Virus record (IMG/VR): IMGVR_UViG_3300042876_000486
Coordinates: 1-22,833 of that record
Direction: 5' to 3' (one strand)
DNA length: 22,833 bases
From: a virus
Positions within the stretch are counted from its first letter, which is position 1; every line of letters begins with the position of its first letter. Of the stretch, positions 1,943 through 12,644 are shown one piece after another. The position numbers and the translations under genes are program-made. The notes under the pieces were generated by a model. The model ran no database searches. It was not told the DNA's origin and was given only the letters and a program-made list of their open reading frames with translations.

Positions 1943-2200
1943 TCATTTGATGATCGCAACGATCATTTCGAGGTTCGCCTTCGTGAGCGCGTATTCGTAT
2001 TTCACGTTCGCGCGCGAGGTCGCGTCAACGCGCTTCGCAACCTTCTGCTGATCCTTCGACGCGCGCGCTGCGTTCGCGCGCATACGACGACGCGCGATTT
2101 TTTCGTTCACCTTCATCGCGCGGGCGAGGGCAGCGACGGTGAACGTTTTGTCGTTCGCCGTTTTGAGGGAGGCGAGGAGGGCGTCGATATCGTAGGTCAT
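1943..2200 (-). CDS. 85-aa basic DNA-binding-like protein, paralogue of 7034-7291
   Basis: The start is ATG 2200, preceded by the leader CAAACGAAGGATACGATC. The longer open frame upstream of it (to 2764) is GC-rich non-coding DNA. Residues 18-50 (KTFTVAALARAMKVNEKIAR, then RRMRANAAR) form a basic helix-turn-helix-like segment, followed by a C-terminal KYEY...I strand/helix. The plus-strand gene at 7034 has the same length and the same segments (KTFTLAQLARELKTDPKLAR; RYEW), so they are paralogues. It is probably a DNA-binding or nucleoid-type protein. It has its own promoter and a double-hairpin 3' end. Confidence 0.85.
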   Translation of the reverse strand: MTYDIDALLASLKTANDKTFTVAALARAMKVNEKIARRRMRANAARASKDQQKVAKRVDATSRANVKYEYALTKANLEMIVAIIK

Positions 2201-2316: not shown

Positions 2317-2984
2317 TCCGTCCAAAACGAGAACACGAAATTATTTTGCCTCCTCCTCGCAAGGGGGTGCGCGTCGACCTCGCAAGGGGTTCGACCTCGT
2401 CCTCGACGGGAGGGGGAGAGGTCGCCCCGCCCTCGAAGGGGAGGCTGGCAACCGCTGGCTGCTGACCAGGGGGCGTCAAAAAAGGGGGTTGACGGATTGG
2501 ACGCCCGTGGACCGGGGCTACACGGCGGGTTGGGAGCTCCGCAGGTATCCATGCGAGGGGGATGTGCAAAACCTCTGTAGCCCGCTGGACATAATGAGAA
2601 CATCGGGCGTCGGCTGACGCCTTGTAGGGCAGGCTACACGGCGGGTCGGAAACCGTGTAGCTAGCATACGGGGCGAGATCAGGCCGCCCGACAAAACGAG
2701 AACGGACGGGTGTTGCGGCCGGGACACGGCCTGTTGCGGATGGGCAACTGTGACCTTTCGGCAACGGGGGCTGGCAACCGGAGGTGTGCTCCGCGGGTCA
2801 CAGTGACCGGAAGGACACAGGGGGGTGTTGCGGACGGGCAACAGGTGGAGGGGGGTCGGGGCGACCAGCGGTGGGCCACTAGAGGCCAGCCATAAGGCGC
2901 CGTTCCACTCTAGGGGTTTGAGTGAGTTCGTTCTTGCCAGGGTTCCCACAGGAAGGCAACTACTGGTCCGTCCTGCTGAGGCCG
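2317..2984. other. GC-rich non-coding region with repeated motifs and hairpins
   Basis: No credible gene is seen in about 670 bases; the open frames here translate to Pro/Ser/Arg-rich sequence and arise from base composition. It holds three copies of CAWAAYGAGAAC (2323-2334, 2590-2601, 2692-2703), two copies of CTACACGGCGGGT (near 2519 and 2635), an 8-bp stem CTACACGG/CCGTGTAG (about 2635-2660), a GGCGTC-GGCT-GACGCC hairpin near 2608, two hairpins built from GTTGC-GGAYGG-GCAAC (2733-2748 and 2826-2843), and a GGTCAC-A-GTGACC palindrome near 2796. It could be an operator-rich regulatory region or encode a structured RNA. Confidence 0.55.
2882..2936 (+). repeat. Dispersed repeat family 2, copy A
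   Basis: Contains GAGGCCA, then GCCGTTCCACTCTAGGGG (from about 2899), then TTCGTTCTTG. It matches the copies at 4755-4799, 6375-6404 and 7625-7660. It lies in the spacer just beyond a cassette terminator. Confidence 0.65.
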
Positions 2985-3011
2985 AAAAAAGAGCGCCTAC
3001 GTGAGGCGCTC
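2985..3011 (-). terminator. Intrinsic terminator for the 3308-3024 gene
   Basis: Minus strand 8-bp stem GAGCGCCT / AGGCGCTC with a 5-nt loop followed by six T. A textbook rho-independent terminator 12 bases past the stop codon. Confidence 0.9.
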
Positions 3012-3023
3012 AGTTGGGCAGTG

Positions 3024-3308
3024 TCAGAGGCGGAAGACGCGCGGTTCGAAGTCGACGGCCATACGCGACGGGGCCCAATCATAGCCGCCGGCGTCGTAGC
3101 GATGCATAACCGCGCGGGCGAAGATCTCCGGGAAGCGCTCCCAGCGGGCGAGCTGATCGGGCGAGGTCGACACGTCGCGGAACACGCCGGAGATCATGCG
3201 GCTGAAGTCATCGAAGCGAAGCTCGAGCGTAGCGGGATCGTAGGTCGCCCGGATGACTTGGCCGTCGCGGGCATACATGCGCGAGGTGTTGAAGGTGAGG
3301 TCGAGCAT
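3024..3308 (-). CDS. 94-aa unknown protein, single-gene cassette
   Basis: The start is ATG 3308 after the leader GCAAACGAAAGGTACTCACT; the longer frame upstream runs through the promoter and is not coding. The 94-residue product has an N-terminal beta-like part (MLDLTFNTSRMYARDGQVIR), RATYDPATLELRFDDFSRM and an aromatic/basic C-terminus (YDAGGYDWAP..MAVDFEP). I recognise no family. It is a complete transcription unit with promoter 3339-3367 and terminator 2985-3011, and no other gene shares the transcript. Confidence 0.8.
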   Translation of the reverse strand: MLDLTFNTSRMYARDGQVIRATYDPATLELRFDDFSRMISGVFRDVSTSPDQLARWERFPEIFARAVMHRYDAGGYDWAPSRMAVDFEPRVFRL

Positions 3309-3338
3309 AGTGAGTACCTTTCGTTTGCGTTGCAGCAT

Positions 3339-3367
3339 ATCATCGCACATGGGCATCCACAGATCAA
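3339..3367 (-). promoter_or_regulatory. Cassette promoter (94-aa gene)
   Basis: Minus strand TTGATC (3367-3362), 17 bases, GATGAT (3344-3339). It is flanked upstream by ATTGGCG and has GCCCATGTGC in the spacer and ATGCTGCAACGCAAACGAA downstream, all shared with the neighbouring units. Confidence 0.7.
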
Positions 3368-3440
3368 CGCCAATCTCGCCAGGCATTTAGGAACCAGGGG
3401 CAACCCCGAAACCCATTTCCCTAATGCCAGCCCCTGGCCC

Positions 3441-3457
3441 CTGGCAACTACTGGTAG
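3441..3457 (+). repeat. Dispersed repeat family 1 copy (GGCAACTACTGGTAGC)
   Basis: CTGGCAACTACTGGTAGC. The core CTAC-TG-GTAG is an interrupted palindrome. The copy lies between the terminator of one cassette and the promoter of the next. Confidence 0.7.
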
Positions 3458-3471
3458 CTGAACCTATAGAG

Positions 3472-3487
3472 GAGGCCTGAAGGCCTC
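3472..3487 (-). terminator. Hairpin, possible terminator of the 3889-3491 gene
   Basis: Minus strand GAGGCC-TTCA-GGCCTC begins 4 bases past the TAA stop. The tail is not T-rich (CTCTATAGG), so termination would be weak or factor-assisted. Confidence 0.5.
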
Positions 3488-3490
3488 GCC

Positions 3491-3889
3491 TTAGCGATAG
3501 GAGGGTCGATGGCGCGGAAACACGCGGGCGACTTGTTCGGGCGTCACGCGCACCATCACGTCGCGGTGATCGGCGTAGCGCATCCGCAGGTGCTCCTCAT
3601 ACTGCTTGGCCGCGGGGAAGTCGCAGGCGTGGAATTCACGCGCGGTCCCGCGCATCGGTTCGCCCGCGGTGTAATACCAACCACCCTCCTCGGGCCCGCC
3701 GTAGACGCGGTCGGTTTCGTAGGCGGCGACGGTGGCCCATTCGGCCTCGCGCAGGCCCTTGTCGGTCACGCCCTCGTCGTTGCCGCAGTACGGGCAGTAG
3801 ACGCGGCCGTCCTCGAACTCGGCCTGGTCAGCCCGGAAAGTGCCGCAGGAAGGCGTGTCGCAGAAGTAGGTCTGGATCGGGTAATTCAT
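3491..3889 (-). CDS. 132-aa zinc-ribbon protein, single-gene cassette
   Basis: The start chosen is ATG 3889. An in-frame ATG 15 bases upstream is the GAATGGAG that serves as ribosome site in this promoter family, as in the neighbouring units. Residues 10-35 form a zinc ribbon (C10-DTPS-C15 ... C32-PY-C35-GNDEG). Aromatic and Arg/His-rich sequence follows, including EEGGWYYTAGEPMRGTAREF and an RMRYADHRDVMVRV segment. The C-terminus has no recognised domain. It may bind nucleic acid or protein through the ribbon. The unit is served by promoter 3921-3950. Confidence 0.8.
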   Translation of the reverse strand: MNYPIQTYFCDTPSCGTFRADQAEFEDGRVYCPYCGNDEGVTDKGLREAEWATVAAYETDRVYGGPEEGGWYYTAGEPMRGTAREFHACDFPAAKQYEEHLRMRYADHRDVMVRVTPEQVARVFPRHRPSYR

Positions 3890-3920
3890 GGTAGTCTCCA
3901 TTCGATTGCGTTGCCTGAAC

Positions 3921-3950
3921 ATCATCGCACGTGGGCGTCCCACCGCTCAA
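3921..3950 (-). promoter_or_regulatory. Cassette promoter (132-aa gene)
   Basis: Minus strand TTGAGC (3950-3945), 18 bases, GATGAT (3926-3921), with GCCCACGTGC in the spacer and GGCAACGCAATCGAATGGAG as leader. Same family as the other cassette promoters. Confidence 0.65.
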
Positions 3951-4002
3951 CCGCAATTTGACCAGGTCTACGGAGGAGTAGTTGCCGAGACAGGCTTGAT
4001 CC

Positions 4003-4021
4003 TCAGCTACCAGCAGTTGCC
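4003..4021 (-). repeat. Dispersed repeat family 1 copy in minus orientation
   Basis: Reads GGCAACTGCTGGTAGCTGA on the minus strand, while most copies read on the plus strand. It encodes the last residues and stop codon of the small membrane protein at 4143-4003. A half copy (GGCAACTACTCC, minus) lies near 3975-3986. Confidence 0.6.
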
Positions 4022-4143
4022 GATCTACTAAAGTAGGCCCGAAGGCCTACCATAGTGATGCAGATTCCCGGCGTCATGAAGACGAGCATGCCCGGGTGGA
4101 CGAGGGCGAACGCAAGCGCGATAATCCACAGGAACAGGGTCAT
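4003..4143 (-). CDS. 46-aa membrane protein whose 3' end runs through a terminator and a repeat
   Basis: ATG 4143 overlaps the stop of the 22-aa ORF (ATGA). Residues 2-36 are almost entirely hydrophobic (MTLFLWIIALAFALVH; MLVFMTPGICITMVGL), giving one long or two short membrane segments. The last codons are unusual: GLRAYFSR is encoded by the hairpin at 4033-4050, and SATAGS plus the stop by the dispersed repeat at 4003-4021. The original stop may have been lost when the repeat was inserted, or the tail may simply be tolerated. Unknown inner-membrane role. Confidence 0.65.
   Translation of the reverse strand: MTLFLWIIALAFALVHPGMLVFMTPGICITMVGLRAYFSRSATAGS
4033..4050 (-). terminator. UUCG-loop terminator inside the end of the 46-aa gene
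   Basis: Minus strand GTAGGCC-TTCG-GGCCTAC followed by TTTAGTAG. It has a 7-bp stem with a stable UUCG tetraloop and lies within the coding sequence, so the full-length 46-aa product needs read-through. Confidence 0.65.
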
Positions 4144-4208
4144 TCGAGCAACCTCACCACGCAGTAGAACAGCGCTAGGAACAGCAGGACGGAAACGAGA
4201 AGCTCCAT
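4140..4208 (-). CDS. 22-aa hydrophobic peptide
   Basis: This tiny ORF starts at ATG 4208 (TGATG with the upstream stop) and ends in TGA overlapping the next ATG (ATGA). The product begins MELLVSVLLFLALFYC and ends RLLE: one membrane span with a charged end. The exact coupling on both sides, with no other ORF in this gap, supports real translation. Such single-span peptides in phages may act on host membrane proteins, but no function can be assigned. Confidence 0.65.
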   Translation of the reverse strand: MELLVSVLLFLALFYCVVRLLE

Positions 4209-4576
4209 CAGTACTCATCCTCCGGGTAGAACTCACCGTTCATCTCGGCCTCGATGCGGGCATACATGCGCTGCTCACGCTCGCGCGTGTCGTCGGGCGA
4301 CTCGATCTGCACGATCCCGCGGGATTCGGGGTACTCCTCACGGAGCATCCGCCGTGCGGTTTCGCGGTCAGGCGCATCGACGCCGGCGCCAAACTCATCG
4401 CCACATTCGTCGAGCATGACGGCGTGGAAGTGGATCAGGGGTTTCTTCATGACTACGTCGGGCTCCCAGCCAAGTGCGCGGCGCATTTGGGACGAAGTCA
4501 TCGTGCGGGCGCCGGGTTCCACACGGGTGACGGTGTTGGTCGCGAGGTAGGCGCGGATCAGTTCATCGTCGGTCAT
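4208..4576 (-). CDS. 122-aa acidic unknown protein, first gene of a three-gene cassette
   Basis: ATG 4576 follows the conserved leader AAACGAATGAGG. The 122-residue product has a basic N-terminal helical region (ATNTVTRVEPGARTMTSSQM then RRALG, about residues 12-36) that could be helix-turn-helix-like. The C-terminus is very acidic with many Glu (EREQRMYARIEAEMNGEF then YPEDEY). No family is recognised. It is cotranscribed with two hydrophobic peptides from promoter 4607-4636, so it may be the soluble partner of a small membrane system. Confidence 0.8.
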   Translation of the reverse strand: MTDDELIRAYLATNTVTRVEPGARTMTSSQMRRALGWEPDVVMKKPLIHFHAVMLDECGDEFGAGVDAPDRETARRMLREEYPESRGIVQIESPDDTREREQRMYARIEAEMNGEFYPEDEY

Positions 4577-4606
4577 CGGAGTGCCTCATTCGTTTGGTTG
4601 CGAGAC

Positions 4607-4636
4607 ATCATCACATGTGGGTTTTCCGGTTGTCAA
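4607..4636 (-). promoter_or_regulatory. Cassette promoter (122-aa gene)
   Basis: Minus strand TTGACA (4636-4631, perfect -35), 18 bases, GATGAT (4612-4607). ATTGGCG precedes it, CCCACATGT is in the spacer, and TCGCAACCAAACGAATGAGG is the leader. Confidence 0.75.
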
Positions 4637-4699
4637 CGCCAATGTGACCTCCCACCTTGCAGGAGAGGTAGCCAGACCAGACTTACCGGAGGGGACGCG

Positions 4700-4748
4700 G
4701 GCAACTACTGGTAGCTCAGATCCAGACCAGCTGGCAACTACTGGTAGG
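4700..4748 (+). repeat. Dispersed repeat family 1, two tandem copies
   Basis: GGCAACTACTGGTAGC at 4700-4715 and CTGGCAACTACTGGTAGG at 4731-4748, separated by 15 bases containing CCAGACCAG. Both are in the same orientation, between two cassettes. Confidence 0.75.
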
Positions 4749-4754
4749 GAACTC

Positions 4755-4799
4755 GAGGCCACGCCAGAGAGGCCGTTCCAGCCTAGGGGTTCGTTCTTG
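4755..4799 (+). repeat. Dispersed repeat family 2, copy B
   Basis: GAGGCCACG, then GGCCGTTCCAGCCTAGGGG, then TTCGTTCTTG. The closest match to copy A at 2882-2936. It lies directly after two family 1 copies. Confidence 0.7.
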
Positions 4800-4880
4800 A
4801 GTTTAGTGAGCCGGGTCCATACCGCGATCAACTCCCCAGGCAGTAGAGAGTCAACCGCAGCCGCAACAGGACCCGGCTCG

Positions 4881-4916
4881 CCGACTGAGTAAACGAATGG
4901 TAGAAACCTCAGTCGG
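4881..4916 (-). terminator. 9-bp inverted repeat over the stop codon of the 81-aa gene
   Basis: CCGACTGAG / CTCAGTCGG with an 18-nt loop. The minus-strand stop codon lies within the stem. No T tract follows, so it is a candidate terminator or mRNA-end structure only. Confidence 0.4.
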
Positions 4917-5154
4917 TGTTGCGGTAGACGAGCAGCACATCGCGGCGGATCTCGAGCGCCTTGATAGCTTCGTCGTAGTCACGAGGCCGAAGATCATGTC
5001 GGCCGGTCAGCTTACGCGCGAGCTCCATCAGTCGGGCGCGTGTCACGCCGCGAGGTGGAGTCAGCCCGGCTTTCACGAGTTTCAGGTGAGCCTTGACAGT
5101 GCAGACCTGCAAGTACTCGCGAGCGTGCGGGTTGGTCATGTCGATGGTGGTCAT
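4909..5154 (-). CDS. 81-aa helical basic unknown protein, single-gene cassette
   Basis: The start is ATG 5154 after the leader GCAAACGAAAGGCTTAGACCC; the longer frame to 5199 runs into the promoter. The 81-residue product is helical and basic: HAREYLQVCTVKAHLKLVKA, TRARLMELARKL, then DYDEAIKALEIRRDVLLVYR. The two helical blocks could form a small helical bundle; no family is recognised. Promoter 5190-5218. Confidence 0.8.
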   Translation of the reverse strand: MTTIDMTNPHAREYLQVCTVKAHLKLVKAGLTPPRGVTRARLMELARKLTGRHDLRPRDYDEAIKALEIRRDVLLVYRNTD

Positions 5155-5189
5155 GGGTCTAAGCCTTTCGTTTGCGTCGTTGCAGGCAT

Positions 5190-5218
5190 ATATTCGCACA
5201 TGGGCAACCCATGCACAA
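5190..5218 (-). promoter_or_regulatory. Cassette promoter (81-aa gene)
   Basis: Minus strand TTGTGC (5218-5213), 17 bases, GAATAT (5195-5190), with GCCCATGTGC in the spacer and CTGCAACGACGCAAACGAAAGG as leader. Confidence 0.65.
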
Positions 5219-5255
5219 TATCCAATTAACCAGACGTGGCAAGGGCGCTAGGCAT

Positions 5256-5271
5256 CTGGCAACCGCTGGTA
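5256..5271 (+). repeat. Dispersed repeat family 1, variant copy
   Basis: CTGGCAACCGCTGGTA, between a cassette promoter and the preceding unit's terminator. The same variant (GGCAACCGCTGG) occurs at 2447-2458. Confidence 0.6.
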
Positions 5272-5282
5272 TCCTGAAACCT

Positions 5283-5303
5283 AAAAGGGGGTTGCTAGCC
5301 CCC
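5283..5303 (-). terminator. Terminator of the 5764-5309 two-gene cassette
   Basis: Minus strand GGGGG-CTAGCAA-CCCCC followed by TTTTAGG, six bases past the TAG stop. The stem is short but all G-C. Confidence 0.65.
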
Positions 5304-5308
5304 AGCCC

Positions 5309-5554
5309 CTATGTGGCTTCATACGCAGCAACGATTGCGAGGTCGGTGATGCGGGCAACCTCATCGGGGTCAGCATCCTCATTGTCGATCAAAGCCAGAT
5401 ATGCATCGTAGTGCTCACGGGCATACACGTGGGCCTCGTCGGTGAAGTATTCGAGGATATAGTTAACCTCGAGTTCTGGAGGCAGAACGTAGGTGTCGGG
5501 GTCGATCGTCTGCGGCAAGGGCAGGTCACGATCATTGGCGAACAGTGTCAGCAT
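5309..5554 (-). CDS. 81-aa acidic unknown protein, second gene of a cassette
   Basis: ATG 5554 lies three bases after the upstream stop; the end of that gene supplies a GGGTGA ribosome site. The 81-residue product is strongly acidic with many Asp/Glu and Tyr (DTYVLPPELEVNYILEYF; HYDAYLALIDNEDADPDEVA) and is probably helical in its second half. Acidic small phage proteins sometimes mimic DNA or bind host enzymes, but nothing here proves that. Cotranscribed with 5558-5764. Confidence 0.75.
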   Translation of the reverse strand: MLTLFANDRDLPLPQTIDPDTYVLPPELEVNYILEYFTDEAHVYAREHYDAYLALIDNEDADPDEVARITDLAIVAAYEAT

Positions 5555-5557
5555 GAG

Positions 5558-5764
5558 TCACCCATATACCCAGACGTCGATGGCCGTGGTGAGATAGTCA
5601 CAGCCGGGTTCGTGCTCATCCATCCCGCGCTGGTCGATGATGCGCTGGATATTGTCGATGGCTTCGGCATCACGCTGGTCGGCATGACGGGTAAAGCGTT
5701 CACGCAATGCGGTGACTGCGCGAAGCAAGGCGACTTCAGTGGTCATGGGTCGAGGATCAGGCAT
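5558..5764 (-). CDS. 68-aa helical unknown protein, first gene of a cassette
   Basis: The start is ATG 5764, preceded by AACGAATGGAGATACTC. The in-frame ATG inside GAATGGAG is taken as part of the ribosome site, as elsewhere in the array. The product has a helix-rich core (EVALLRAVTALRERFTRHAD; EAIDNIQRIIDQRGM) and a short C-terminal CDYLTTAIDVWVYG. Unknown function. Promoter 5792-5820. Confidence 0.75.
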   Translation of the reverse strand: MPDPRPMTTEVALLRAVTALRERFTRHADQRDAEAIDNIQRIIDQRGMDEHEPGCDYLTTAIDVWVYG

Positions 5765-5791
5765 GAGTATCTCCATTCGTTGCGATAGCAT

Positions 5792-5820
5792 ATCATCGCA
5801 TATTGGCTACCAGCAATCAA
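5792..5820 (-). promoter_or_regulatory. Cassette promoter (68-aa gene)
   Basis: Minus strand TTGATT (5820-5815), 17 bases, GATGAT (5797-5792), preceded by AAGATTGGCG and followed by ATGCTATCGCAACGAATGGAG. The spacer carries GCTGGTAGCC, which resembles part of repeat family 1. Confidence 0.7.
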
Positions 5821-5837
5821 CGCCAATCTTGCTTGCG

Positions 5838-5854
5838 GGCAACTACTGGTAGCC
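5838..5854 (+). repeat. Dispersed repeat family 1 copy
   Basis: GGCAACTACTGGTAGCC, 17 bases upstream of a cassette -35 box and just past the terminator of the next unit. Confidence 0.75.
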
Positions 5855-5867
5855 AAAATGTTACCCT

Positions 5868-5889
5868 GAAAGAAGCCCCGAAGGGCTTC
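5868..5889 (-). terminator. UUCG-loop terminator of the 6177-5896 gene
   Basis: Minus strand GAAGCCC-TTCG-GGGCTTC followed by TTTCAGGG, with a 7-bp stem six bases past the stop codon. Confidence 0.75.
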
Positions 5890-5895
5890 AATCAG

Positions 5896-6177
5896 TCAGG
5901 GCATAGTCACGCGGCGGATGTGAGCCCACAGGGACATGGTGATCCCGGTTTCGATCAGCTGGTCGATCTCGCCCGGGTTCAGGCGCAGCGCTTCGCCGAA
6001 GGCTTCGGCGTGTTCGACGGCTTCGCGGTCGAGGATCGAGCCACCGCTGATGTTCAGCCAGCGGGCGTCGGGGTCAAGCTCGACGGTGAGGCCCATCTCG
6101 CGCAGGCGGTCGAAGTCAAGAGTGACGCCGTGCTTCGGTGCGCTCGAAGCCGGGCGGGCAGTTTTCATCGTAGGCAT
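5896..6177 (-). CDS. 93-aa unknown protein, single-gene cassette
   Basis: ATG 6177 follows CAAACGAATGGAGGTGCTG, an excellent GGAGGT ribosome site. A basic, flexible N-terminus (MPTMKTARPASSAPK) precedes LDFDRLREMGLTVELDPDAR, a GGSILDREAVEHAEAFGEAL helix and LNPGEIDQLIETGITMSLWA. No family is recognised. The promoter is 6207-6235 and the terminator 5868-5889, making a complete single-gene unit. Confidence 0.8.
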   Translation of the reverse strand: MPTMKTARPASSAPKHGVTLDFDRLREMGLTVELDPDARWLNISGGSILDREAVEHAEAFGEALRLNPGEIDQLIETGITMSLWAHIRRVTMP

Positions 6178-6206
6178 CAGCACCTCCATTCGTTTGATGC
6201 AAGAAC

Positions 6207-6235
6207 ACAATCGCACATGGGCAGCCATCAATCAA
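6207..6235 (-). promoter_or_regulatory. Cassette promoter (93-aa gene)
   Basis: Minus strand TTGATT (6235-6230), 17 bases, GATTGT (6212-6207), with GCCCATGTGC in the spacer and TTGCATCAAACGAATGGAGG as leader. Confidence 0.7.
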
Positions 6236-6268
6236 CCGGAATCTTGCTTACTCCTAACCGGAGAGGCT

Positions 6269-6353
6269 GGCAACTACTGGTGGCCAAGCTACTGGCCCAC
6301 AGCAAGGCAACCACTGGTAGCCCGATTCCAGACCAGGCTGGCAACCAGTAGTG
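6269..6353 (+). repeat. Cluster of three family 1 repeats, one with inverted core
   Basis: GGCAACTACTGG (6269-6280), GGCAACCACTGGTAGC (6306-6321) and GGCAACCAGTAGTGG (6339-6353). In the third copy the CTACTGG core is inverted relative to the flanking GGCAAC. Between them lies CCAGACCAG, as between the copies near 4720. Confidence 0.65.
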
Positions 6354-6374
6354 GGAGGTAAGTCACCAGTCCAG

Positions 6375-6404
6375 GGGGCCGTTCCAGTCTAGGGGCCGTT
6401 CCAG
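6375..6404 (+). repeat. Dispersed repeat family 2, copy C
   Basis: GGGCCGTTCCAGTCTAGGGG followed at once by a second GCCGTTCCAG, i.e. one and a half copies, just beyond the stop of the 51-aa gene where a terminator would be expected. Confidence 0.6.
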
Positions 6405-6405
6405 T

Positions 6406-6561
6406 TCAAGCTTTGAGTGCTTCAATCTCTTTCTTGCGGCGCCACGTGGCTTCGTCTCTGCTCATGCCGGTCCACTTCGGCCAGCCATCCACAAAGACAG
6501 CCCAGGAGTACTGATCGTCTCCTTCGTACTTCCTCATCTTCACCCGCTGCTCAGGCCTCAT
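6406..6561 (-). CDS. 51-aa small phage protein (YSWAVFVDG motif)
   Basis: This short ORF starts at ATG 6561 in an ATGA overlap with the upstream stop. The 51-residue product has MRKYEGDDQYSWAVFVDGWP followed by KWTGMSRDEATWRRKKEIEA. The layout K-Y-x-G-D-D-x-Y-S-W-A-V-F ... T-G-(M/L)-S-R-x-E-A ... R-R-K resembles small phage/host proteins with a beta hairpin and a C-terminal helix that I recall as uncharacterised. It is coupled to the 75-aa gene. No clear hairpin terminator follows. Confidence 0.75.
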   Translation of the reverse strand: MRPEQRVKMRKYEGDDQYSWAVFVDGWPKWTGMSRDEATWRRKKEIEALKA

Positions 6562-6785
6562 GCTGAACCCACCATATCTGAGAAGCTACGGCCCGCGGCA
6601 ACAAGGTGGCTGTAGTAGAAGCCTTGCAGCCATTCGGTGGGTGAGTGGATGGACCACTTGGCCACAACGTATGGGTGCACGCTGTGGCCTTCGCGCCAGC
6701 AGCAGATCACCCATGTCTCATCGTCAAGTCGCTGACGCTCGATGACCGGGTAGCCATTGAGCATCTTCGGTGGTTCAGTCGTCAT
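6558..6785 (-). CDS. 75-aa unknown protein, first gene of a two-gene cassette
   Basis: ATG 6785 follows AAACGAATGGAGGTTAGC, so GGAGGT is the ribosome site and the in-frame ATG upstream is not used. The 75-residue product has MLNGYPVIERQRLDDETWVI, then HPYVVAKWSIHSPTEW, GFYYSHLVAAGRSF. The pattern of a YVVAKW strand, a G-(F/H)-Y strand and a closing helix recalls small phage proteins of unknown function. Promoter 6815-6843. Confidence 0.75.
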   Translation of the reverse strand: MTTEPPKMLNGYPVIERQRLDDETWVICCWREGHSVHPYVVAKWSIHSPTEWLQGFYYSHLVAAGRSFSDMVGSA

Positions 6786-6814
6786 GCTAACCTCCATTCG
6801 TTTAGCGTAAGATC

Positions 6815-6843
6815 ATAATATCGTCTAAGTATCCACAGTGCAA
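6815..6843 (-). promoter_or_regulatory. Cassette promoter (75-aa gene)
   Basis: Minus strand TTGCAC (6843-6838), 17 bases, TATTAT (6820-6815), the best -10 of the family. GATCGGCA precedes it and TTACGCTAAACGAATGGAGG follows. This copy confirms that GATGAT in the others sits at the -10 position. Confidence 0.75.
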
Positions 6844-6959: not shown

Positions 6960-6988
6960 TTGAGAGTGAGCAAGAAACGTGATAGGCT
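6960..6988 (+). promoter_or_regulatory. Plus-strand promoter of the 7034 gene
   Basis: TTGAGA (6960-6965), 17 bases, TAGGCT (6983-6988), preceded by AATGGCG exactly as in the minus-strand family (TTGGCG-TTGA). It is divergent from 6815-6843. Confidence 0.65.
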
Positions 6989-7033
6989 GAATGTGTCACG
7001 ACGACGTGACTAACCCGAACGGAGCAACAAACG

Positions 7034-7291
7034 ATGACGACCGAACCCAAAACCCCCGAAGCGCCCGTCGAAAAATCGACGAAGGCCAAAACCTTCACGC
7101 TCGCCCAGCTTGCCCGGGAGCTGAAGACCGACCCGAAACTCGCCCGTCGCAAGTTCCGCGCGAACGCGGCGAAGGAGAAGCCGACGAAGCTTCCCGACCC
7201 GGTGAAGGCGCCCGGCCGCAAGAACACGCGGTACGAATGGCCCGACAACGCGGCCAACCGCAAGGCGGTCACCGACTTCCTCAAAGGCTAA
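7034..7291 (+). CDS. 85-aa basic DNA-binding-like protein, paralogue of 1943-2200
   Basis: ATG 7034 follows GAACGGAGCAACAAACG. An N-terminal Pro/Lys/Glu linker (MTTEPKTPEAPVEKSTKAK) leads into KTFTLAQLARELKTDPKLAR and a basic RRKFRANAAKEK segment, then KNTRYEWPDNAANRKAVTDF. The length and the KTFT.A.LAR...K.AR / RANAA / (K/R)YE(Y/W) pattern match the minus-strand gene at 2200-1943. It is probably a helix-turn-helix or nucleoid-like DNA binder. It has its own promoter and terminator and ends the cassette array on the right. Confidence 0.85.
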   Translation: MTTEPKTPEAPVEKSTKAKTFTLAQLARELKTDPKLARRKFRANAAKEKPTKLPDPVKAPGRKNTRYEWPDNAANRKAVTDFLKG

Positions 7292-7298
7292 CGGGATT

Positions 7299-7323
7299 GG
7301 GCGCTCCGGCGCCCTTTCTCTTG
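7299..7323 (+). terminator. Terminator of the 7034 gene
   Basis: GGGCGC-TCCG-GCGCCC followed by TTTCTCTTG, eight bases past the TAA stop. Confidence 0.8.
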
Positions 7324-7332
7324 CCCTAAAGA

Positions 7333-7371
7333 CTGGCAACTACTAGTCTCTTAACCTCTATCTGGGCAACT
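7333..7371 (+). repeat. Dispersed repeat family 1, two ACTAGT variants
   Basis: Two copies of GGCAACTACTAGTC, about 30 bases apart (near 7335 and 7361). Here the core is CTACTAGT instead of CTACTGGTAG. More degenerate copies follow at 7445 and 7487 (GCAACTACTTTTTGC, GCAACTAGTTTTTGC). Confidence 0.6.
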
Positions 7372-7624
7372 ACTAGTCCATCTTAGTAGGCAAGACGGAG
7401 TAGATAGATGGGTAAGATAGAGCAGACAGGTAGGCAAGAAGATAGCAACTACTTTTTGCTTGCTGGCTACTAGAGCTATCTTTCTAGCAACTAGTTTTTG
7501 CTTCTGGCCACCAGCCGGAGGCCTCTGGGGTCTAGTTGTAGGAAAGTTACGGTTCCAGAGTGGTCCAGTGTAGTGGGGAGTACAGTCCCCTACCAGAGCC
7601 TGGGCCGGGCCATTCCAGAGACTT

Positions 7625-7660
7625 GAGGCCACCTATAGGAGCCGTTCCACCCTAGGGGTC
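7625..7660 (+). repeat. Dispersed repeat family 2, copy D
   Basis: GAGGCCACC, then GAGCCGTTCCACCCTAGGGG; CCATTCCA follows. It marks the border between the GC-rich repeat zone and the AT-rich zone. Confidence 0.65.
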
Positions 7661-7918
7661 AGAGCCATTCCACTCAGCTACAAAAGTTTCCTCGCGCGTA
7701 TTACACACTTTTTTACAGTTTTGAATGGCGTTATAGTAATAACTACATGATACTATTCATTCTTTTTCGACAGCATTCGCCTAAACCTAGGGCGTTTGAC
7801 TTTTTTGAATCTATCAACGCTTCAAAACCTGTAAATATTCATACATGTAATCACGCGATGCTAGTAATGGCATGCCCTCAATGAAATCAAGCACTTACAA
7901 TCCAACACCCTCCATTTC

Positions 7919-7939
7919 ATAGCAAATTTGCATTGCTAT
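7919..7939. repeat. Inverted repeat in AT-rich region
   Basis: ATAGCAA-atttgca-TTGCTAT, a perfect 7-bp inverted repeat that includes the 10-bp palindrome GCAAATTTGC. No T tract follows; a possible protein-binding site. Confidence 0.5.
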
Positions 7940-8091
7940 ACAAGGTAATTTTTGCCGAAATTTCTCCCTCGATTTCGCATAAGTACTTGAAATCAAACGC
8001 TAATCGTCCAGATACCAAACAGGAGTGAAATGCTAGCGCTATACAGTTTTCGCCTATAGACATAGAGCCACCGTCTGGACACAAAAAGTAT

Positions 8092-8121
8092 TTGACATAC
8101 CCGCATAAGACGTGATACGTT
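8092..8121 (+). promoter_or_regulatory. Promoter of the large rightward operon
   Basis: TTGACA (8092-8097, consensus -35), 18 bases, TACGTT (8116-8121), or ATACGT after 17. The first gene starts about 38 bases downstream of the -10. It is the only strong promoter seen before the 8159-14622 gene run. Confidence 0.65.
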
Positions 8122-8158
8122 AGGAATATCCCTACAGCTCTAATAGGTAAAGCCCAAA

Positions 8159-8431
8159 ATGATCGGCAGTGCCCCCACGAAAAAAGATTTGCTCGAGCTG
8201 CTGTATTCCACGCAAGAGCTAGCCGTCATGGCGAGAGTCTCAACGCCTGCGTGGCGCAACTCTGGCCACGTCCGTGGTGGCGAAGCAGTCATTCGGAGAG
8301 CTGCATTCCAGGCACAGCGGGAACTGATGCATCTCCACAACGAGGCGCAGCGCGACGACGTTAAACTACTGCTGCTATCAATGGCTCAGGCTTTGGACAC
8401 ATTACCAACGAGGCACACCGATGTGGGGTGA
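8159..8431 (+). CDS. 90-aa HTH-like protein, first gene of the rightward operon
   Basis: ATG 8159 is the first start after promoter 8092-8121, although its ribosome site (TAGGTAAAGCCCAAA) is modest. Residues 9-35 (KDLLELLYSTQELAVMARVS, then TPAWRNSGH) look like a helix-turn-helix and closely resemble the 8597 protein (ELIRMFYTSNEAAALAHIS, STWS). The C-terminal half is helical (QRELMHLHNEAQRDDVKLLL). Probably a small DNA-binding regulator. Its stop overlaps the next gene by 11 nt. Confidence 0.75.
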   Translation: MIGSAPTKKDLLELLYSTQELAVMARVSTPAWRNSGHVRGGEAVIRRAAFQAQRELMHLHNEAQRDDVKLLLLSMAQALDTLPTRHTDVG

Positions 8432-8660
8432 GTGGATAAGAATTCATCACGCGCAACCAGCCGTGGGCGAATACATACAGATGGAATACAACTGCGGGTT
8501 TTGCGGCAACAGTCCCCTAGTTCTCGAAGGGTTCTATGGCACGGACACGCCCAAGTACATCAGCGGTGACGAACCATGCGACAGAAGGGCAGAAAGATGG
8601 CGAAAGTTGAAGCCAAACGCAAAAGAAAAAGCCGTAGAACGCCAAGCCGTCTTGAGCTGA
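8421..8660 (+). CDS. 79-aa cysteine-motif protein
   Basis: ATG 8421 lies inside the end of the previous gene. The product starts MWGEWIRIHHAQPAVGEYIQ and has C25-G-F-C28-GN, with C53 further on (GDEPCDRR), a possible degenerate zinc site. Its Lys/Arg-rich tail (RAERWRKLKPNAKEKAVERQ) overlaps the first 64 bases of the 8597 gene in another frame, so that tail may simply be read through the next gene's start. Function unknown. Confidence 0.65.
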   Translation: MWGEWIRIHHAQPAVGEYIQMEYNCGFCGNSPLVLEGFYGTDTPKYISGDEPCDRRAERWRKLKPNAKEKAVERQAVLS

Positions 8661-8887
8661 TCCGGATGTTCTACACCAGCAATGAGGCGGCGGCGCTGGC
8701 GCATATCTCAGCCAGCACTTGGAGCATCGCTCAGCAGCACCCCGACTGGGCGAGTACAAGGCGTCACACTGACACGATCATCCAAGAGCTCATCAGTGAA
8801 TTGGACCAGATAGCTACGTCGGGCACGTCAAAGACGTACCGCGACTGGGCAGTAGCAACAAGAGCTCTTGTGGGAGAAGCGGAATGA
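8597..8887 (+). CDS. 96-aa HTH-like protein, paralogue of the 8159 product
   Basis: The start chosen is ATG 8597 after AGAAGGGCAGAAAG; an in-frame ATG at 8576 is possible. A Lys/Arg-rich N-terminus (MAKVEAKRKRKSRRTPS) could bind nucleic acid. LELIRMFYTSNEAAALAHIS then STWSIAQQH matches the helix-turn-helix-like part of the operon's first protein, followed by a helical C-terminus (IIQELISELDQIA). The pair looks like a diverged duplication. Its stop is coupled to the next gene by ATGA. Confidence 0.75.
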   Translation: MAKVEAKRKRKSRRTPSRLELIRMFYTSNEAAALAHISASTWSIAQQHPDWASTRRHTDTIIQELISELDQIATSGTSKTYRDWAVATRALVGEAE

Positions 8888-9081
8888 AGACTCTGATAAA
8901 TAAAGGCAGCCTGGCAGATTTCGTCAGAGCAGGCCATTGTTTGGTGTTCAACATGCTCAGCGACAACAGGCCCAGCCTCATCTATGTGGGTAGCCGTAAA
9001 GGCTGGCCGAAAAGCAGGCACCATGGTCGACGCACGACAAAAAGCGTCAAATACCGGATCATAGTAAGAGGCAAACTATGA
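8884..9081 (+). CDS. 65-aa basic unknown protein
   Basis: ATGA overlap on both sides. A short helix (MKTLINKGSLADFVRAGHCL) is followed by NMLSDNRPSLIYVGSRKGWP and a very basic tail (KSRHHGRRTTKSVKYRIIVR). High Arg/Lys/His content suggests nucleic-acid contact, but no family is recognised. Confidence 0.7.
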   Translation: MKTLINKGSLADFVRAGHCLVFNMLSDNRPSLIYVGSRKGWPKSRHHGRRTTKSVKYRIIVRGKL

Positions 9082-9329
9082 GCATTCTCTGCACTATATT
9101 CGGCCATCGCTGGCAGCCGAGCAAATCCCGAGAGCTCCACACTTACTACTGCCCCTGGTGCAAGAGCTATGGCGTGACGACGGACTACCTACTGAACATC
9201 ATCCAAGAGTATGAGGAGATACTCCATGATCTTGGCGTGCTTCACAAAGACAATCCCAAAACAGGGGGAAAAGGTAAACGTCTACCTGACGGTTGGCGAG
9301 TTATCGACTCCGACGCAGATAAAGCGTGA
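9078..9329 (+). CDS. 83-aa Cys/His zinc-binding-like protein
   Basis: ATG 9078 overlaps the upstream stop (ATGA). It begins MSILCTIFGHRWQPSK and has YYC25-PW-C28-KSYG, so C5, H10, C25 and C28 could form one zinc site. The C-x-(I)-F-G-H-x-W ... C-x-x-C layout is frequent in small phage proteins of unknown role. The last 34 codons overlap the next gene in another frame. Confidence 0.7.
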   Translation: MSILCTIFGHRWQPSKSRELHTYYCPWCKSYGVTTDYLLNIIQEYEEILHDLGVLHKDNPKTGGKGKRLPDGWRVIDSDADKA

Positions 9330-9546
9330 GCTCCTCAAGGAGCAGATCATGCTGAGGAAGATCTACAAGAGCCTCGGCGACAATTCACCGCCGTTCGATC
9401 CGGCGCCGTTCCTCGATGTGACTGACGTACTGTTCCTCCAGCTCAAGGAGAACCGCACGCCAGACCGTGTGAAGTACGAGTTGACCGAGTACAAGAACGA
9501 AGATCAGAAGCGAGCCTTTATGGAGAGAATCAATGCAAAAGCTTAG
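9226..9546 (+). CDS. 106-aa unknown protein
   Basis: ATG 9226 has a strong ribosome site, AGGAGAT with a 5-nt spacer, inside the previous gene, giving a 104-nt out-of-frame overlap. The product continues with KQGEKVNVYLTVGELSTPTQ, a helix (IKRELLKEQIMLRKIYKSLG) and a C-terminal charged part (KENRTPDRVKYELTEYKNED). No family recognised. A shorter protein from ATG 9349 cannot be excluded. Confidence 0.65.
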   Translation: MILACFTKTIPKQGEKVNVYLTVGELSTPTQIKRELLKEQIMLRKIYKSLGDNSPPFDPAPFLDVTDVLFLQLKENRTPDRVKYELTEYKNEDQKRAFMERINAKA

Positions 9547-9706
9547 AGACATGGTCCGTGCCTACATCCTGCGCAAGCTGGTGGGCGAAGTCGACCGAGA
9601 GGCGCTGCTCGAGAAAGCCAGCGAAGAGGTGATCAACGATATCACCACCAAGGGGTTCACGCCGGCGGATGAGGCGGTCATTGACGCGGCGCTCAACACA
9701 CCCTGA
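9533..9706 (+). CDS. 57-aa helical unknown protein
   Basis: ATG 9533 follows GGAGAGAATCA and overlaps the upstream stop by 14 nt. The product is helical: MQKLRDMVRAYILRKLVGEV, REALLEKASEEVINDITTKG, then FTPADEAVIDAALNTP. It may be a small coiled-coil or helical-bundle protein. No family recognised, but it fills the gap between well-spaced neighbours. Confidence 0.7.
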   Translation: MQKLRDMVRAYILRKLVGEVDREALLEKASEEVINDITTKGFTPADEAVIDAALNTP

Positions 9707-10136
9707 CACCATCAGCGTGACGGTTGATGGCGTCCATTACCCAAGCCGCGGCGCAGCAGCCAAAGCATTGGGTGTATGTGTGGGCGTCATCACCCGGCAC
9801 TACAAGAGGTACGGCAGCAGCTTCACGCTACAGCTGGCTCACCACCGCAAGCCGGTGCCAACATACGGGCACAAGAGCATCGCAGAGGCAGCACGACAGC
9901 TCAACGTCAACCATCGAAAGCTAAGAACCGGCAGGGAACAAGGCGAAGAGTTTGAAAGAAAAATCAGGTGCCAGCTATTCAAGCCCCCGCCGCCCTGGCA
10001 TCAGTATACTCCATGGGCATGGGGATACTTACTTCACGGCAGTATGCTGCAGTACTGGCCGGGCACACGGAAGTGGCGCTGGAAAATGCAGACCTACATC
10101 GGCAACGTCCATCAGTTCATAGAGGATCACACATGA
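9669..10136 (+). CDS. Protein with two intron-nuclease-type DNA-binding repeats
   Basis: The start is uncertain: ATG 9669 gives 155 residues, and a GTG near 9717 would start just before the first domain. Residues about 17-52 (VTVDGVHYPSRGAAAKALGV ... ITRHYKRYG) match the NUMOD1/IENR pattern (DG..Y.S...AAK.LG.....I..), a helix-turn-helix module that homing endonucleases use for target binding. A second, weaker copy follows (KSIAEAARQLNVNHRKLRTG). No GIY-YIG or HNH catalytic motif is visible. The C-terminus is Trp/Pro-rich (PPPPWHQYTPWAWGYLL). It may be a nuclease relic or a DNA-binding regulator. Confidence 0.7.
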   Translation: MRRSLTRRSTHPDTISVTVDGVHYPSRGAAAKALGVCVGVITRHYKRYGSSFTLQLAHHRKPVPTYGHKSIAEAARQLNVNHRKLRTGREQGEEFERKIRCQLFKPPPPWHQYTPWAWGYLLHGSMLQYWPGTRKWRWKMQTYIGNVHQFIEDHT

Positions 10137-10297
10137 CCATACTTCTTCTCATCGCTACCTTCGTCGCCTTTCTTCTCTGGCTTAGGGCTTATCTAAGCTC
10201 AGCTGAAGATGCAATACCCAACGGCATCATTGCTGTAGTCGGCACGGCATTCGTCGCCGGCGGCTGGGCGTTCTGGATCTTGGATTGGTTTCTCTGA
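10133..10297 (+). CDS. 54-aa membrane protein, two spans
   Basis: ATG 10133 in an ATGA overlap; a longer frame upstream belongs to the previous gene in another frame. Residues 1-20 (MTILLLIATFVAFLLWLRAY) and 29-53 (PNGIIAVVGTAFVAGGWAFW) are two membrane segments joined by a short polar loop (LSSAEDAI). Unknown inner-membrane role. Confidence 0.75.
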   Translation: MTILLLIATFVAFLLWLRAYLSSAEDAIPNGIIAVVGTAFVAGGWAFWILDWFL

Positions 10298-10530
10298 TGA
10301 AACAGGTAGCTTTGAAGTACAGCGACGGCAGCACTAGTACGCCGGTGGATGCCCACTGGGAGCTGAACGAAAAAGGCCAGCTCGTCATTGACCCAGTTAC
10401 ACTCACCGGCAGCGGCCTGGCATTCTGGATCGTGATGCTAGAAGACGGCCGCATTGTGGGTGAGCTGTCACTGAGCGCAGTCTGTAACCCCGGCTACATG
10501 ACAGCCGGCGAGACACTGAGCATCACATGA
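10297..10530 (+). CDS. 77-aa beta-rich unknown protein
   Basis: ATG 10297 overlaps the upstream stop by one base (TGATG); a TTG start 12 bases upstream is less likely. The sequence alternates hydrophobic strands (MKQVALKYSDGSTSTPVDAH; GQLVIDPVTLTGSGLAFWIV; GRIVGELSLSAV), suggesting a small beta-sandwich. No family recognised. Confidence 0.7.
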   Translation: MKQVALKYSDGSTSTPVDAHWELNEKGQLVIDPVTLTGSGLAFWIVMLEDGRIVGELSLSAVCNPGYMTAGETLSIT

Positions 10531-10757
10531 CAGACCTGGCATTACAGACCATAACAACTGCGATGCAGCATTGGAAGCAGGCTAAGAAAACTGCGCCGCC
10601 ATGTCCGGTGTTTACAGCTGCTGCCATTGCGTCGTATGATGCAGCGATCCAACAACTCACACGACGAGTGGAGGAACTACATGGAGTACTCGACCGTGAA
10701 CGAAGTGGTGACACTGGGGATAGTCAGCTTGATGATCGTGTCGGCGGCGACCCGTGA
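10527..10757 (+). CDS. 76-aa helical unknown protein
   Basis: ATGA start at 10527. Residues 1-55 are predicted helical with a coiled-coil-like segment (SYDAAIQQLTRRVEELHGVL). The tail RERSGDTGDSQLDDRVGGDP is low-complexity and read from the bases that encode the next gene's start, so it may be a passenger of the 77-nt overlap. Confidence 0.65.
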   Translation: MTDLALQTITTAMQHWKQAKKTAPPCPVFTAAAIASYDAAIQQLTRRVEELHGVLDRERSGDTGDSQLDDRVGGDP

Positions 10758-10827
10758 CCGGTACATCATCGGCTCCACTTGGCTCGGCGGCGCTGTAGCA
10801 TTGGGGATTCTATGGCTGACCAGATAA
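10681..10827 (+). CDS. 48-aa membrane protein
   Basis: ATG 10681 has a GTGGAGG ribosome site in the preceding gene. Hydrophobic segments at residues 8-20 (EVVTLGIVSLMIVSA) and 27-46 (IIGSTWLGGAVALGILWL) give two likely membrane spans. Its stop overlaps the next gene by 16 nt. Confidence 0.7.
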   Translation: MEYSTVNEVVTLGIVSLMIVSAATRDRYIIGSTWLGGAVALGILWLTR

Positions 10828-11006
10828 GAGACATGATCACCTGCCCGATTTGTGGCAAGAAATCAAGCGTGATCGACACGGGTACCACGCGATACGACGG
10901 CTGGCCAACAATTTGGCGGCGGCGTAAGTGCAAGCCGTGCGACTACATCATCGGTTACACCATCGAGATTCCGAAACCCGAAAAGGTGAAGGTGAACCAG
11001 AAGTAA
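10812..11006 (+). CDS. 64-aa NrdR-like zinc ribbon without ATP-cone
   Basis: ATG 10812 follows GGGGATTCT; ATG 10833 is an alternative. The product has C11-PI-C14-GKKSSVIDTG, then WRRRKC40-KP-C43 and YIIGYTIEI. The order CPxCG ... S.V.DT ... G...WRRR.C..C ... .T.E matches the N-terminal zinc-ribbon domain of the ribonucleotide-reductase repressor NrdR. The ATP-cone domain that senses nucleotides in NrdR is absent. It may bind DNA on its own; regulation of nucleotide genes is inference only. Confidence 0.7.
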   Translation: MADQIRDMITCPICGKKSSVIDTGTTRYDGWPTIWRRRKCKPCDYIIGYTIEIPKPEKVKVNQK

Positions 11007-11671
11007 TGGTCAACATTCAGTGCACTCACCCTGATCCGTGGCTCAGCGCTGTAGCTATGGATGACAAGCGGGTCAACAAGATGACCCTTGAAACGGCGCA
11101 GCTCTATTGCACGATCACTGGCACGCCCACATACCGGCCGGTTCACCAGAACAACCCGACAACTGCTTGGTGTAAGCAGAACCTGAATTGGCTCGTGGAG
11201 TTTCATCATGCCCTCGCTGCCGAGTACTTCTACCGCTTCGGAAAGATCCACAAATCCTTCGTGGACGTCGGTCAAGCGATGCGTAGTCACGGTCCCGCGA
11301 AGCCGAAGTTCTTCCGTAATGGCGCCCGTACCACCCGAACAACGGACGACGGCCGACGGATCGACTTCACTTTCATCGAAGACACTCACCTTGCGTATCG
11401 TTACTATCTCCGCTGTCGGATGATGTTCGATACCAAGCAACCCGTGTGGACACGTAGACCTCCGCCGTTCTGGCTCGATGAGGCCAATATCACTGACATG
11501 CCCATGATCTTCAGCTGTGACGTTCATGAGCACTTCTTGAACCCCGTGCAATGGAGAGTCGTATGCACTACTATGAAGAAAAGAACTTTGCAGGAGCCTG
11601 GGCGGCGAAGTCGAGCGACGAATACCCAATCCAGCACAAGGATAGCCAATACCGCTTCATCACGAAGGTGA
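11006..11671 (+). CDS. Phage protein resembling pyrimidine-dimer-glycosylase-like family
   Basis: ATG 11006 overlaps the previous stop by one base (TAATG). The 221-residue product has CTHPDPWLSAVAMDDKRVNK, MTLETAQLYCTITGT, PVHQNNPTTAWCKQNLNWL and EYFYRFGKIHKSF. The order D.(D)K(R/H)V.KM.LE.AQL ... H.N(N/H)P...W......N..WL ... E(Y)..R(Y/F)GK.HKS matches, as I recall it, a common phage protein family related to small pyrimidine-dimer DNA glycosylases. Enzymatic function is not proven. The last 36 codons overlap the next gene. Confidence 0.65.
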   Translation: MVNIQCTHPDPWLSAVAMDDKRVNKMTLETAQLYCTITGTPTYRPVHQNNPTTAWCKQNLNWLVEFHHALAAEYFYRFGKIHKSFVDVGQAMRSHGPAKPKFFRNGARTTRTTDDGRRIDFTFIEDTHLAYRYYLRCRMMFDTKQPVWTRRPPPFWLDEANITDMPMIFSCDVHEHFLNPVQWRVVCTTMKKRTLQEPGRRSRATNTQSSTRIANTASSRR

Positions 11672-11967
11672 AGGACGAGCACGTCGGGCTGCCGCTGTAT
11701 CAGCTCCGCTTGATCTACGGCATGACGCCGGAGATGCAGGAGTGGCTCGACGCCGTGAACGACACCGGCCGTATCGGTATTCCGGGTCATGCCAAGGCTT
11801 TGGTGGATCGCCTGGCTGAGAGAAAGCTGATCCACCTGGATAAAACGGGGAGTATCTGGATTGCGCTCAGTCTTGGCGAAGCTGCATCAAGCGGTAAAGC
11901 TGCAGGATCCACAGAAGCTGGAAACAGCGATGCAGGAAGCGGAGGTAGTCCTCTCGAGGCAAAATAA
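11563..11967 (+). CDS. 134-aa unknown protein with low-complexity tail
   Basis: ATG 11563 follows ATGGAGAGTCGT, where GGAGAG is the ribosome site; the ATG in it (11551) is an alternative start. The folded part (residues 1-100: MHYYEEKNFAGAWAAKSSDE ... YQLRLIYGMTPEMQEWLDAV ... KALVDRLAERKLIHLD) looks winged-helix-like, with a final GSIWIALS strand. The tail EAASSGKAAGSTEAGNSDAG is Gly/Ser/Ala-rich and overlaps the next gene's coding frame. Confidence 0.65.
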   Translation: MHYYEEKNFAGAWAAKSSDEYPIQHKDSQYRFITKVKDEHVGLPLYQLRLIYGMTPEMQEWLDAVNDTGRIGIPGHAKALVDRLAERKLIHLDKTGSIWIALSLGEAASSGKAAGSTEAGNSDAGSGGSPLEAK

Positions 11968-12070
11968 AGAGGAAGCTCTCGAGTGGTACTTTGGCAAGAA
12001 GCTCAGGCTATGCCCACAGTGCAAGCAGTGGCGACCCGATTGGGACAAGTGTAAATGTTCGCCACGCTGA
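11861..12070 (+). CDS. Zinc-binding protein, TTG or internal ATG start
   Basis: The best start is TTG 11861 (GGGGAG 8 bases upstream), giving 69 residues; ATG 11930 would give 46. Helical N-terminus (LAKLHQAVKLQDPQKLETAM, EAEVVLSRQNKEEALEWYF) and C51-PQ-C54 ... C64-K-C66 at the C-terminus, a small zinc knuckle. Overlaps the previous gene by 107 nt out of frame. Function unknown. Confidence 0.55.
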   Translation: MRSVLAKLHQAVKLQDPQKLETAMQEAEVVLSRQNKEEALEWYFGKKLRLCPQCKQWRPDWDKCKCSPR

Positions 12071-12222
12071 AGGGCCACCAGGTTCAGATCGACCTTCAAG
12101 CCAAAGAAGAAGCGAAGGAGCTCGGCGAGGTTATACAAGCCGGGCTTCAGTCAGTCGACATAGACGCCAAGAACTATCGGCGGCTACATGAACTTGCAAC
12201 GAGGCTCAGGAGCATCAAATGA
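12055..12222 (+). CDS. 55-aa helical unknown protein
   Basis: ATG 12055 overlaps the previous gene by 16 nt and its TGA overlaps the next ATG (ATGA). Beta start (MFATLKGHQVQIDLQ) and a helical rest (KEEAKELGEVIQAGLQ, AKNYRRLHELATRLRSIK). No family recognised. The exact coupling to 12219 supports it. Confidence 0.7.
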   Translation: MFATLKGHQVQIDLQAKEEAKELGEVIQAGLQSVDIDAKNYRRLHELATRLRSIK

Positions 12223-12623: not shown

Positions 12624-12644
12624 CGTATGATGAAGGGGAAGAAC

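Follow-up and report, generated by a model that had tools for sequence, protein, structure and literature searches.

Do small phage genes that lie in separate units beside packed ones form a collection of independently acquired modules, or are they one jointly controlled set? This question is raised by an array of small genes on the minus strand, between positions 6843 and 2985, of a 22,833-bp stretch of viral DNA (IMGVR_UViG_3300042876_000486, positions 1 to 22,833; hereafter the window). On balance, we consider it probable that the array is a single regulon of small, probably early genes, divided among seven short transcription units. A repeated promoter, a repeated dyad, and a shared leader, all in one place, point to shared control; expression, timing, and regulation are read from the sequence throughout. 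For most small phage genes, neither a function nor a time of expression is known; an array with shared control elements reveals which of them work together and offers a way to find their regulator.

Seven first genes, and 11 small open reading frames (ORFs) altogether, make up the array (Table 1), and the codon-position GC profile (GC at the third position, GC3) is of coding type in all 11 ORFs. A preliminary description had counted six minus-strand units here; autonomous-looking units do lie in this interval, but they number seven. Its distinction between packed and separate genes was borne out, as the spacers between units measure 113–332 bp whereas the genes to the right (8159–13573) mostly overlap. 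As a matter of anatomy, an ordered array of self-contained units is thus supported. The window is a base-for-base part of IMGVR_UViG_3300044712_001160, a 67,168-bp contig that ends in a 127-bp direct terminal repeat, so the genome is probably complete.

Transcription of each unit would begin at a separate copy of one sigma-70-type promoter, mostly with an extended -10 element (TTGAtc-17/18-GATGAT). In order, the block consists of GCCCAyGTGc, TTGAtc, 17–18 nt, a -10 hexamer, and a leader, the last of which carries the ribosome-binding site (RBS) common to the first genes of the units (CRMAACGAAtGGAG). The -10 hexamer is GATGAT in four units and GAATAT, GATTGT, or TATTAT in the other three, and in every block the -35 and -10 stand 17 or 18 nt apart. 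When both strands of the 67-kb genome (134,286 positions) were scanned with a leave-one-out position weight matrix (PWM), the blocks of u1–u6 ranked 1–7 with the other copies, above all other genome positions, and the diverged, weaker copy of u7 ranked 34. With the full PWM, members scored 22–37 bits, as against 11 for the best non-member and 11–16 for the maxima of shuffles; the PWM scan found no further copy of the block outside the array anywhere in the 67-kb genome. The blocks had been called near-identical. Six units do share the block and the seventh has diverged, but the wording is too strong for copies whose identity to that of u1 is 63–83% over 46 nt (80–90% over 20 nt). The claim that the 85-amino-acid (85-aa) gene at 2200 carries the block fell away, as only the RBS-proximal AAACGAAGG is present there, and the gene at 1670 shows a marginal likeness (7.1 bits). 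A match to the promoter core at another locus (L020) was discarded, as it falls within coding sequence on an unrelated contig. The u7 promoter has a better -10 hexamer (TATTAT) without TGn, and the other units have a poorer one with TGn. Compensation between -10 quality and the TGn extension is expected of sigma-70 extended -10 promoters, so the blocks behave as such promoters would. Host RNA polymerase would presumably read them, as a search of the phage for a sigma region-4 domain gave no match.

Each spacer between units also holds at least one copy of an element that was absent from the preliminary description. This element, rep1, is an imperfect dyad with the consensus GCAACTACTGGTAGC, present in at least 14 copies, the best of which (CTGGCAACTACTGGTAGC) matches its own reverse complement as GCWACYASTRGTWGC. 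A rep1 PWM yielded 29 matches, with both orientations counted, versus 3.1 in shuffles; 26 of the 29 lie at 2.4–7.5 kb, and the rest of the genome has only three weak ones. The sole overlap with a called gene is at the tail of the small ORF 4003–4143, and the rep1 centre lies ~47–127 bp upstream of the next -10. The element is private to the present phage: an exact 16-mer turned up in seven stretches when 2.9 million viral contigs were searched, and two of these stretches belong to the present phage. A host repeat was also considered and rejected, as the 18-mer occurs in three single places among 84,980 genomes, about as often as by chance. Placed upstream of every promoter, rep1 is the likely site of a single regulator that would switch all units. 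Near rep1, in the same spacers, lies a second repeat, rep2 (four copies plus a partial one), and the spacers 2860–2918 and 4733–4791, both rep1–rep2 composites, resemble each other at 71% over 59 nt. A third candidate repeat, CCAGACCAG, did not rise above shuffles.

Confinement of the copies to ~5 kb in this one phage, together with the similarity of the composite spacers, might also mean that the copies arose recently by local duplication or gene conversion and matter little for regulation, in which case the genes would simply be early genes. We regard this as improbable: conservation falls on the parts that matter in a promoter (hexamers, 17/18 spacing, RBS) and not on other spacer sequence, the downstream genes lack evident paralogy, and other phages have analogous blocks of unrelated sequence.

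The candidate regulators are two paralogous 85-aa proteins encoded at either end of the array, one on each strand. They are 39% identical, and the regions upstream of their genes are alike in inverted arrangement (2260–2288 and 6988–7016). The predicted fold resembles a winged helix-turn-helix (helix-strand-helix-helix-wing; predicted local distance difference test score, pLDDT, 77; predicted template modelling score, pTM, 0.65), which makes both proteins candidate binders of rep1.

Several results weigh against a regulon switched in this way. The model of the winged helix-turn-helix rests on two sequences, and it has no significant match in the PDB (best E 0.7, with MarR-like folds leading). 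The distance from rep1 to the promoter is neither fixed nor helically phased, and no array promoter follows rep1 at 2445, 2771, and 7333–7500. Terminators do not exceed chance overall (10 versus 7.8 expected). A generic sigma-70 scan likewise found no excess (5 versus 3.6 expected), so that the evidence for the promoters is their repetition, not their consensus.

Beyond the right-hand paralogue, a long non-coding stretch with degenerate rep1 copies leads into an AT-rich, ORF-poor region (7300–8150). Transcription diverges from the part at 7.7–8.15 kb, and the cumulative GC skew turns within this stretch, a possible origin or control region. It has also to be asked whether rep1 represents replication or partition iterons of an array that adjoins such an origin. 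The element does extend into non-coding sequence at 7.3–7.5 kb, beside the stretch of lowest GC content (0.45 at 7501–8000) and the skew turn, but most copies stand at gene-sized intervals, about one per spacer, and are not clustered; we therefore hold this explanation to be very improbable.

Termination would complete the autonomy of the units, and up to five of them end in plausible terminator hairpins. The preliminary description placed such hairpins downstream of most units. Those of u1, u3, and u6 are stable (z -3.0, -5.1, and -4.3), but those of u2 and u5 are no better than shuffles (z -1.0 and +0.2), the latter having a T tail, and none was found behind u7. The u3 hairpin falls inside the 46-aa ORF 4003–4143. 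The end of u4, between u4 and u3, forms a 70-nt hairpin with an 11-bp outer and an 18-bp inner stem, and its region is predicted at -57.2 kcal/mol over a 116-nt stretch (z -6), which places it within the six most stable of the genome's 100-nt windows. It lacks a U tract, and the Rfam and tRNA searches gave no match; possible identities are a structured RNA, a terminator of unusual type, and a hairpin formed by the DNA.

Table 1. Predicted features of the array and its flanks, and promoter sites in the relative G002. Minus-strand genes are given from start to end.
Feature	Position (strand)	Predicted promoter	Genes	Remarks
u7	6406..6840 (-)	TTGCAC-17-TATTAT, -10 at ~6820-6815	6785-6558 (75 aa), 6561-6406 (51 aa)	rep2 copies downstream, no terminator hairpin
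u6	5868..6250 (-)	TTGATT-17-GATTGT	6177-5896 (93 aa)	hairpin 5889-5868
u5	5283..5835 (-)	TTGATT-17-GATGAT	5764-5558 (68 aa), 5554-5309 (81 aa)	hairpin 5303-5287 + TTTT
u4	4816..5235 (-)	TTGTGC-17-GAATAT	5154-4909 (81 aa)	giant 70-nt hairpin ~4889-4816
u3	4003..4650 (-)	TTGACA-18-GATGAT	4576-4208 (122 aa), 4208-4140 (22 aa, hydrophobic), 4143-4003 (46 aa, hydrophobic)	hairpin 4050-4033
u2	3472..3970 (-)	TTGAGC-18-GATGAT	3889-3491 (132 aa, CxxC pair)	weak hairpin 3487-3472
u1	2985..3385 (-)	TTGATC-17-GATGAT	3308-3024 (94 aa)	putative terminator 3011-2991 + T6
85-aa protein	1943..2200 (-)			paralogue of 7034-7291; strong hairpins 1855-1945 follow
85-aa paralogue	7034..7291 (+)			other array end, divergent; putative terminator 7299-7314
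rep1, best copy	3441..3458			CTGGCAACTACTGGTAGC, imperfect dyad
rep1, further copies (starts)	2445, 2771, 2953, 4006, 4698, 4731, 5256, 5836, 6267, 6304, 6338, 6879, 7333, 7363			
rep2	2898..2916; also 4771, 6377 (+ partial second beside), 7640			GGCCGTTCCAgtCTAGGGG
G002 sites	28403, 28897, 30104, 30882, 33872, 34613, 35668	sigma54-type -24/-12		each before a small gene

Two distant relatives bear on the proposal of a single regulon. The first, G002 (IMGVR_UViG_3300031673_000043, loci L116 and L117; 60.6 kb), is 61% identical to the present phage in terminase, 41% in primase, and 43% in polymerase, and is colinear in structural and replication genes. Its array contains six copies of TGGCACRG-N3-YTGCT upstream of small genes, most running on into AACGCAAACA, and a seventh site, at 30104, stands outside this repeat family. 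All seven sites fit TGGCACRNNNNYTGCW (0.05 expected), five of them the strict consensus, with gene starts ~52–67 nt downstream; across the 47 terminase relatives checked, only G002 had more than one TGGCACRNNNNYTGCW match. A TGCA-N3-TGCA dyad lies ~73–128 bp upstream of most of these sites (de novo motif score 57 versus 50–51 in shuffles), and sigma54 enhancers sit at about such an upstream distance. The second relative, G006 (IMGVR_UViG_3300032272_000011, locus L125; 66.6 kb), carries ~10 near-identical leaders before small genes at 40505–43771. Eight sigma28-like sites, TAAA-N16-GCCGATAA (0 expected; N16 is one base over the usual sigma28 N15), are followed there by the hairpin leader AGGCCGGGGGAGACCCGGCCT, and no viral contig besides G006 contains the block. 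When terminase loci were surveyed de novo for leaders present in several copies, only G006 stood out clearly and the array of the present phage was missed, so the survey is insensitive and yields no prevalence.

Searches with PF00158 (sigma54 activator) and PF04545 (sigma region 4) gave no match in G002, G006, or the present phage, with positive controls detected. We tentatively suggest that terminase-lineage phages carry compact arrays whose private promoter differs in sigma class (extended -10 sigma-70 here, sigma54 in G002, sigma28-like in G006), each phage thereby handing its small genes to a different host regulon. The same layout under other promoters, with dyads in G002 as well, would by analogy count in favour of a regulon in the present phage. 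If the comparison holds, such arrays would show phages connecting gene sets of one kind to host sigma factors that differ from phage to phage, and the infection programme could depend on host state. A limited search of the open-access literature found no report of sigma-class differences between distant relatives, and we consider this difference the part worth following.

A different view of the array is that of an accessory-gene platform made of morons. Morons are small genes of unknown function that bring a promoter and a terminator of their own; their defining trait is insertion between two genes that are neighbours in a relative, and, to our knowledge, they are not characterized by a shared, repeated promoter. 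The array may resemble them, in that sequence features suggest a promoter and a terminator for its small-gene units. Cassettes of such a platform would recombine between terminator and promoter, with the repeats as homology patches, like the promoter early stem-loops (PeSLs) of T4-type phages, which the available text of PMC4503421 (citing Arbiol 2010; Comeau 2014) presents as composite promoter-terminator motifs with proposed module shuffling. We consider a platform unlikely, though it has evidence on its side. The repeats do sit in spacers, of which two share the composite mentioned above. Only u1 and u2 encode proteins with any relative in the searches made: the u1 protein has a lone one, gp144 of Rhizobium phage RHEph10 (39% identity), and residues ~52–79 of the u2 protein (around EAEWATVAAYETDRVYGGPEEGGWYY) form a short domain spread over ~70 otherwise unlike viral contigs.

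Furthermore, the colinear G002 shares no array gene. However, as judged by local tblastn on eight genomes, it shares nothing between the terminase and exonuclease genes, and none of the packed small genes on the right either; because these are as unshared as the array, turnover is not peculiar to units that carry a promoter, and a gene need not be autonomous to be replaced. When the right-hand operon was used as a homology control, only its DNA-glycosylase-like gene matched among the best-listed records. Unit-sized gain or loss was seen in no related genome pair, nor did a relative with an empty insertion site turn up. Moreover, independently acquired morons should bring unlike promoters, and it is because the same promoter and dyad recur with each spacer that we favour shared control. 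Terminator plus promoter between neighbouring small-gene units may recall the PeSLs as described in that text; the array has its block before 7/7 units and hairpins that are stable behind three, weaker behind two, and absent or atypical behind two. The stem-loops are also unlike between units, so there is no conserved composite motif. PeSLs occur in T4-like myoviruses, whereas the present phage is most likely a siphovirus with no T4-like genes seen in its annotation.

The array is of a known kind, to which the extended start-associated sequences (ESAS) of cluster K mycobacteriophages, the PeSLs of T4-type phages, and the early units of kayviruses belong. The ESAS motif was first described, with the start-associated sequence (SAS), in PMC3203893. 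It lies upstream of non-structural genes, often with an SAS at the RBS position downstream, and contains an inverted repeat (PMC3203893; PMC11373665); Adephagia (cluster K) has seven copies of the 46–47-bp intergenic motif, a sigma-70-like promoter with 17–18 bp spacing (PMC11373665). The array likewise has a repeated intergenic motif with -35 and -10 hexamers at 17–18 bp. Unlike the 17-bp inverted repeat inside the ESAS motif, rep1 is separate, ~47–127 bp upstream of the -10; the 13-bp SAS is GGGATAGGAGCCC at the start codon, in contrast to the array leader; and the Adephagia motifs are dispersed over the genome, whereas those described here lie together in one compact array. In kayviruses, according to the available text of PMC7698491, early genes are distributed over many short units that have host sigma-70 promoters and terminators and that include a host-takeover module; the 58 early promoters are spread genome-wide, and spacer dyads are not among the features that this text describes for them. 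The stoperators of cluster A mycobacteriophages are also short repeats between phage genes, but they are asymmetric protein-binding sites found genome-wide that act with the immunity repressor (PMC9283540), whereas rep1 is a dyad confined to 2.4–7.5 kb. Integron-type gene cassettes were rejected by inspection, as rep1 has GTTGCC instead of the attC core GTTRRRY and each unit has its own promoter.

The genome encodes a phrog_38 terminase, portal, tape-measure protein, family A-type DNA polymerase, helicase, endolysin, and thymidylate synthase, a gene set that points to a siphovirus. By terminase or primase, the closest named phages are 33–49% identical and infect Rhizobium/Sinorhizobium, Shewanella, Erythrobacter, Paracoccus, and Brevundimonas; an alphaproteobacterial host would be our guess. 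No DNA relative of the array was found in 50,697 phage records (megablast, blastn), and the best relative in the terminase scan is 61% identical. The searches made with the u2 and u3 proteins or the winged helix-turn-helix pair revealed no second array, and a concatenated-protein search of 24 records, run without a positive control, gave zero candidates. In RHEph10, the gaps near the homologue of the u1 gene hold that phage's own dispersed repeat (GCTAAATCGCTAATTCGC-like, ~11 copies), which makes positions 8026–13634 of its genome (L101) another small-gene region with a spacer repeat.

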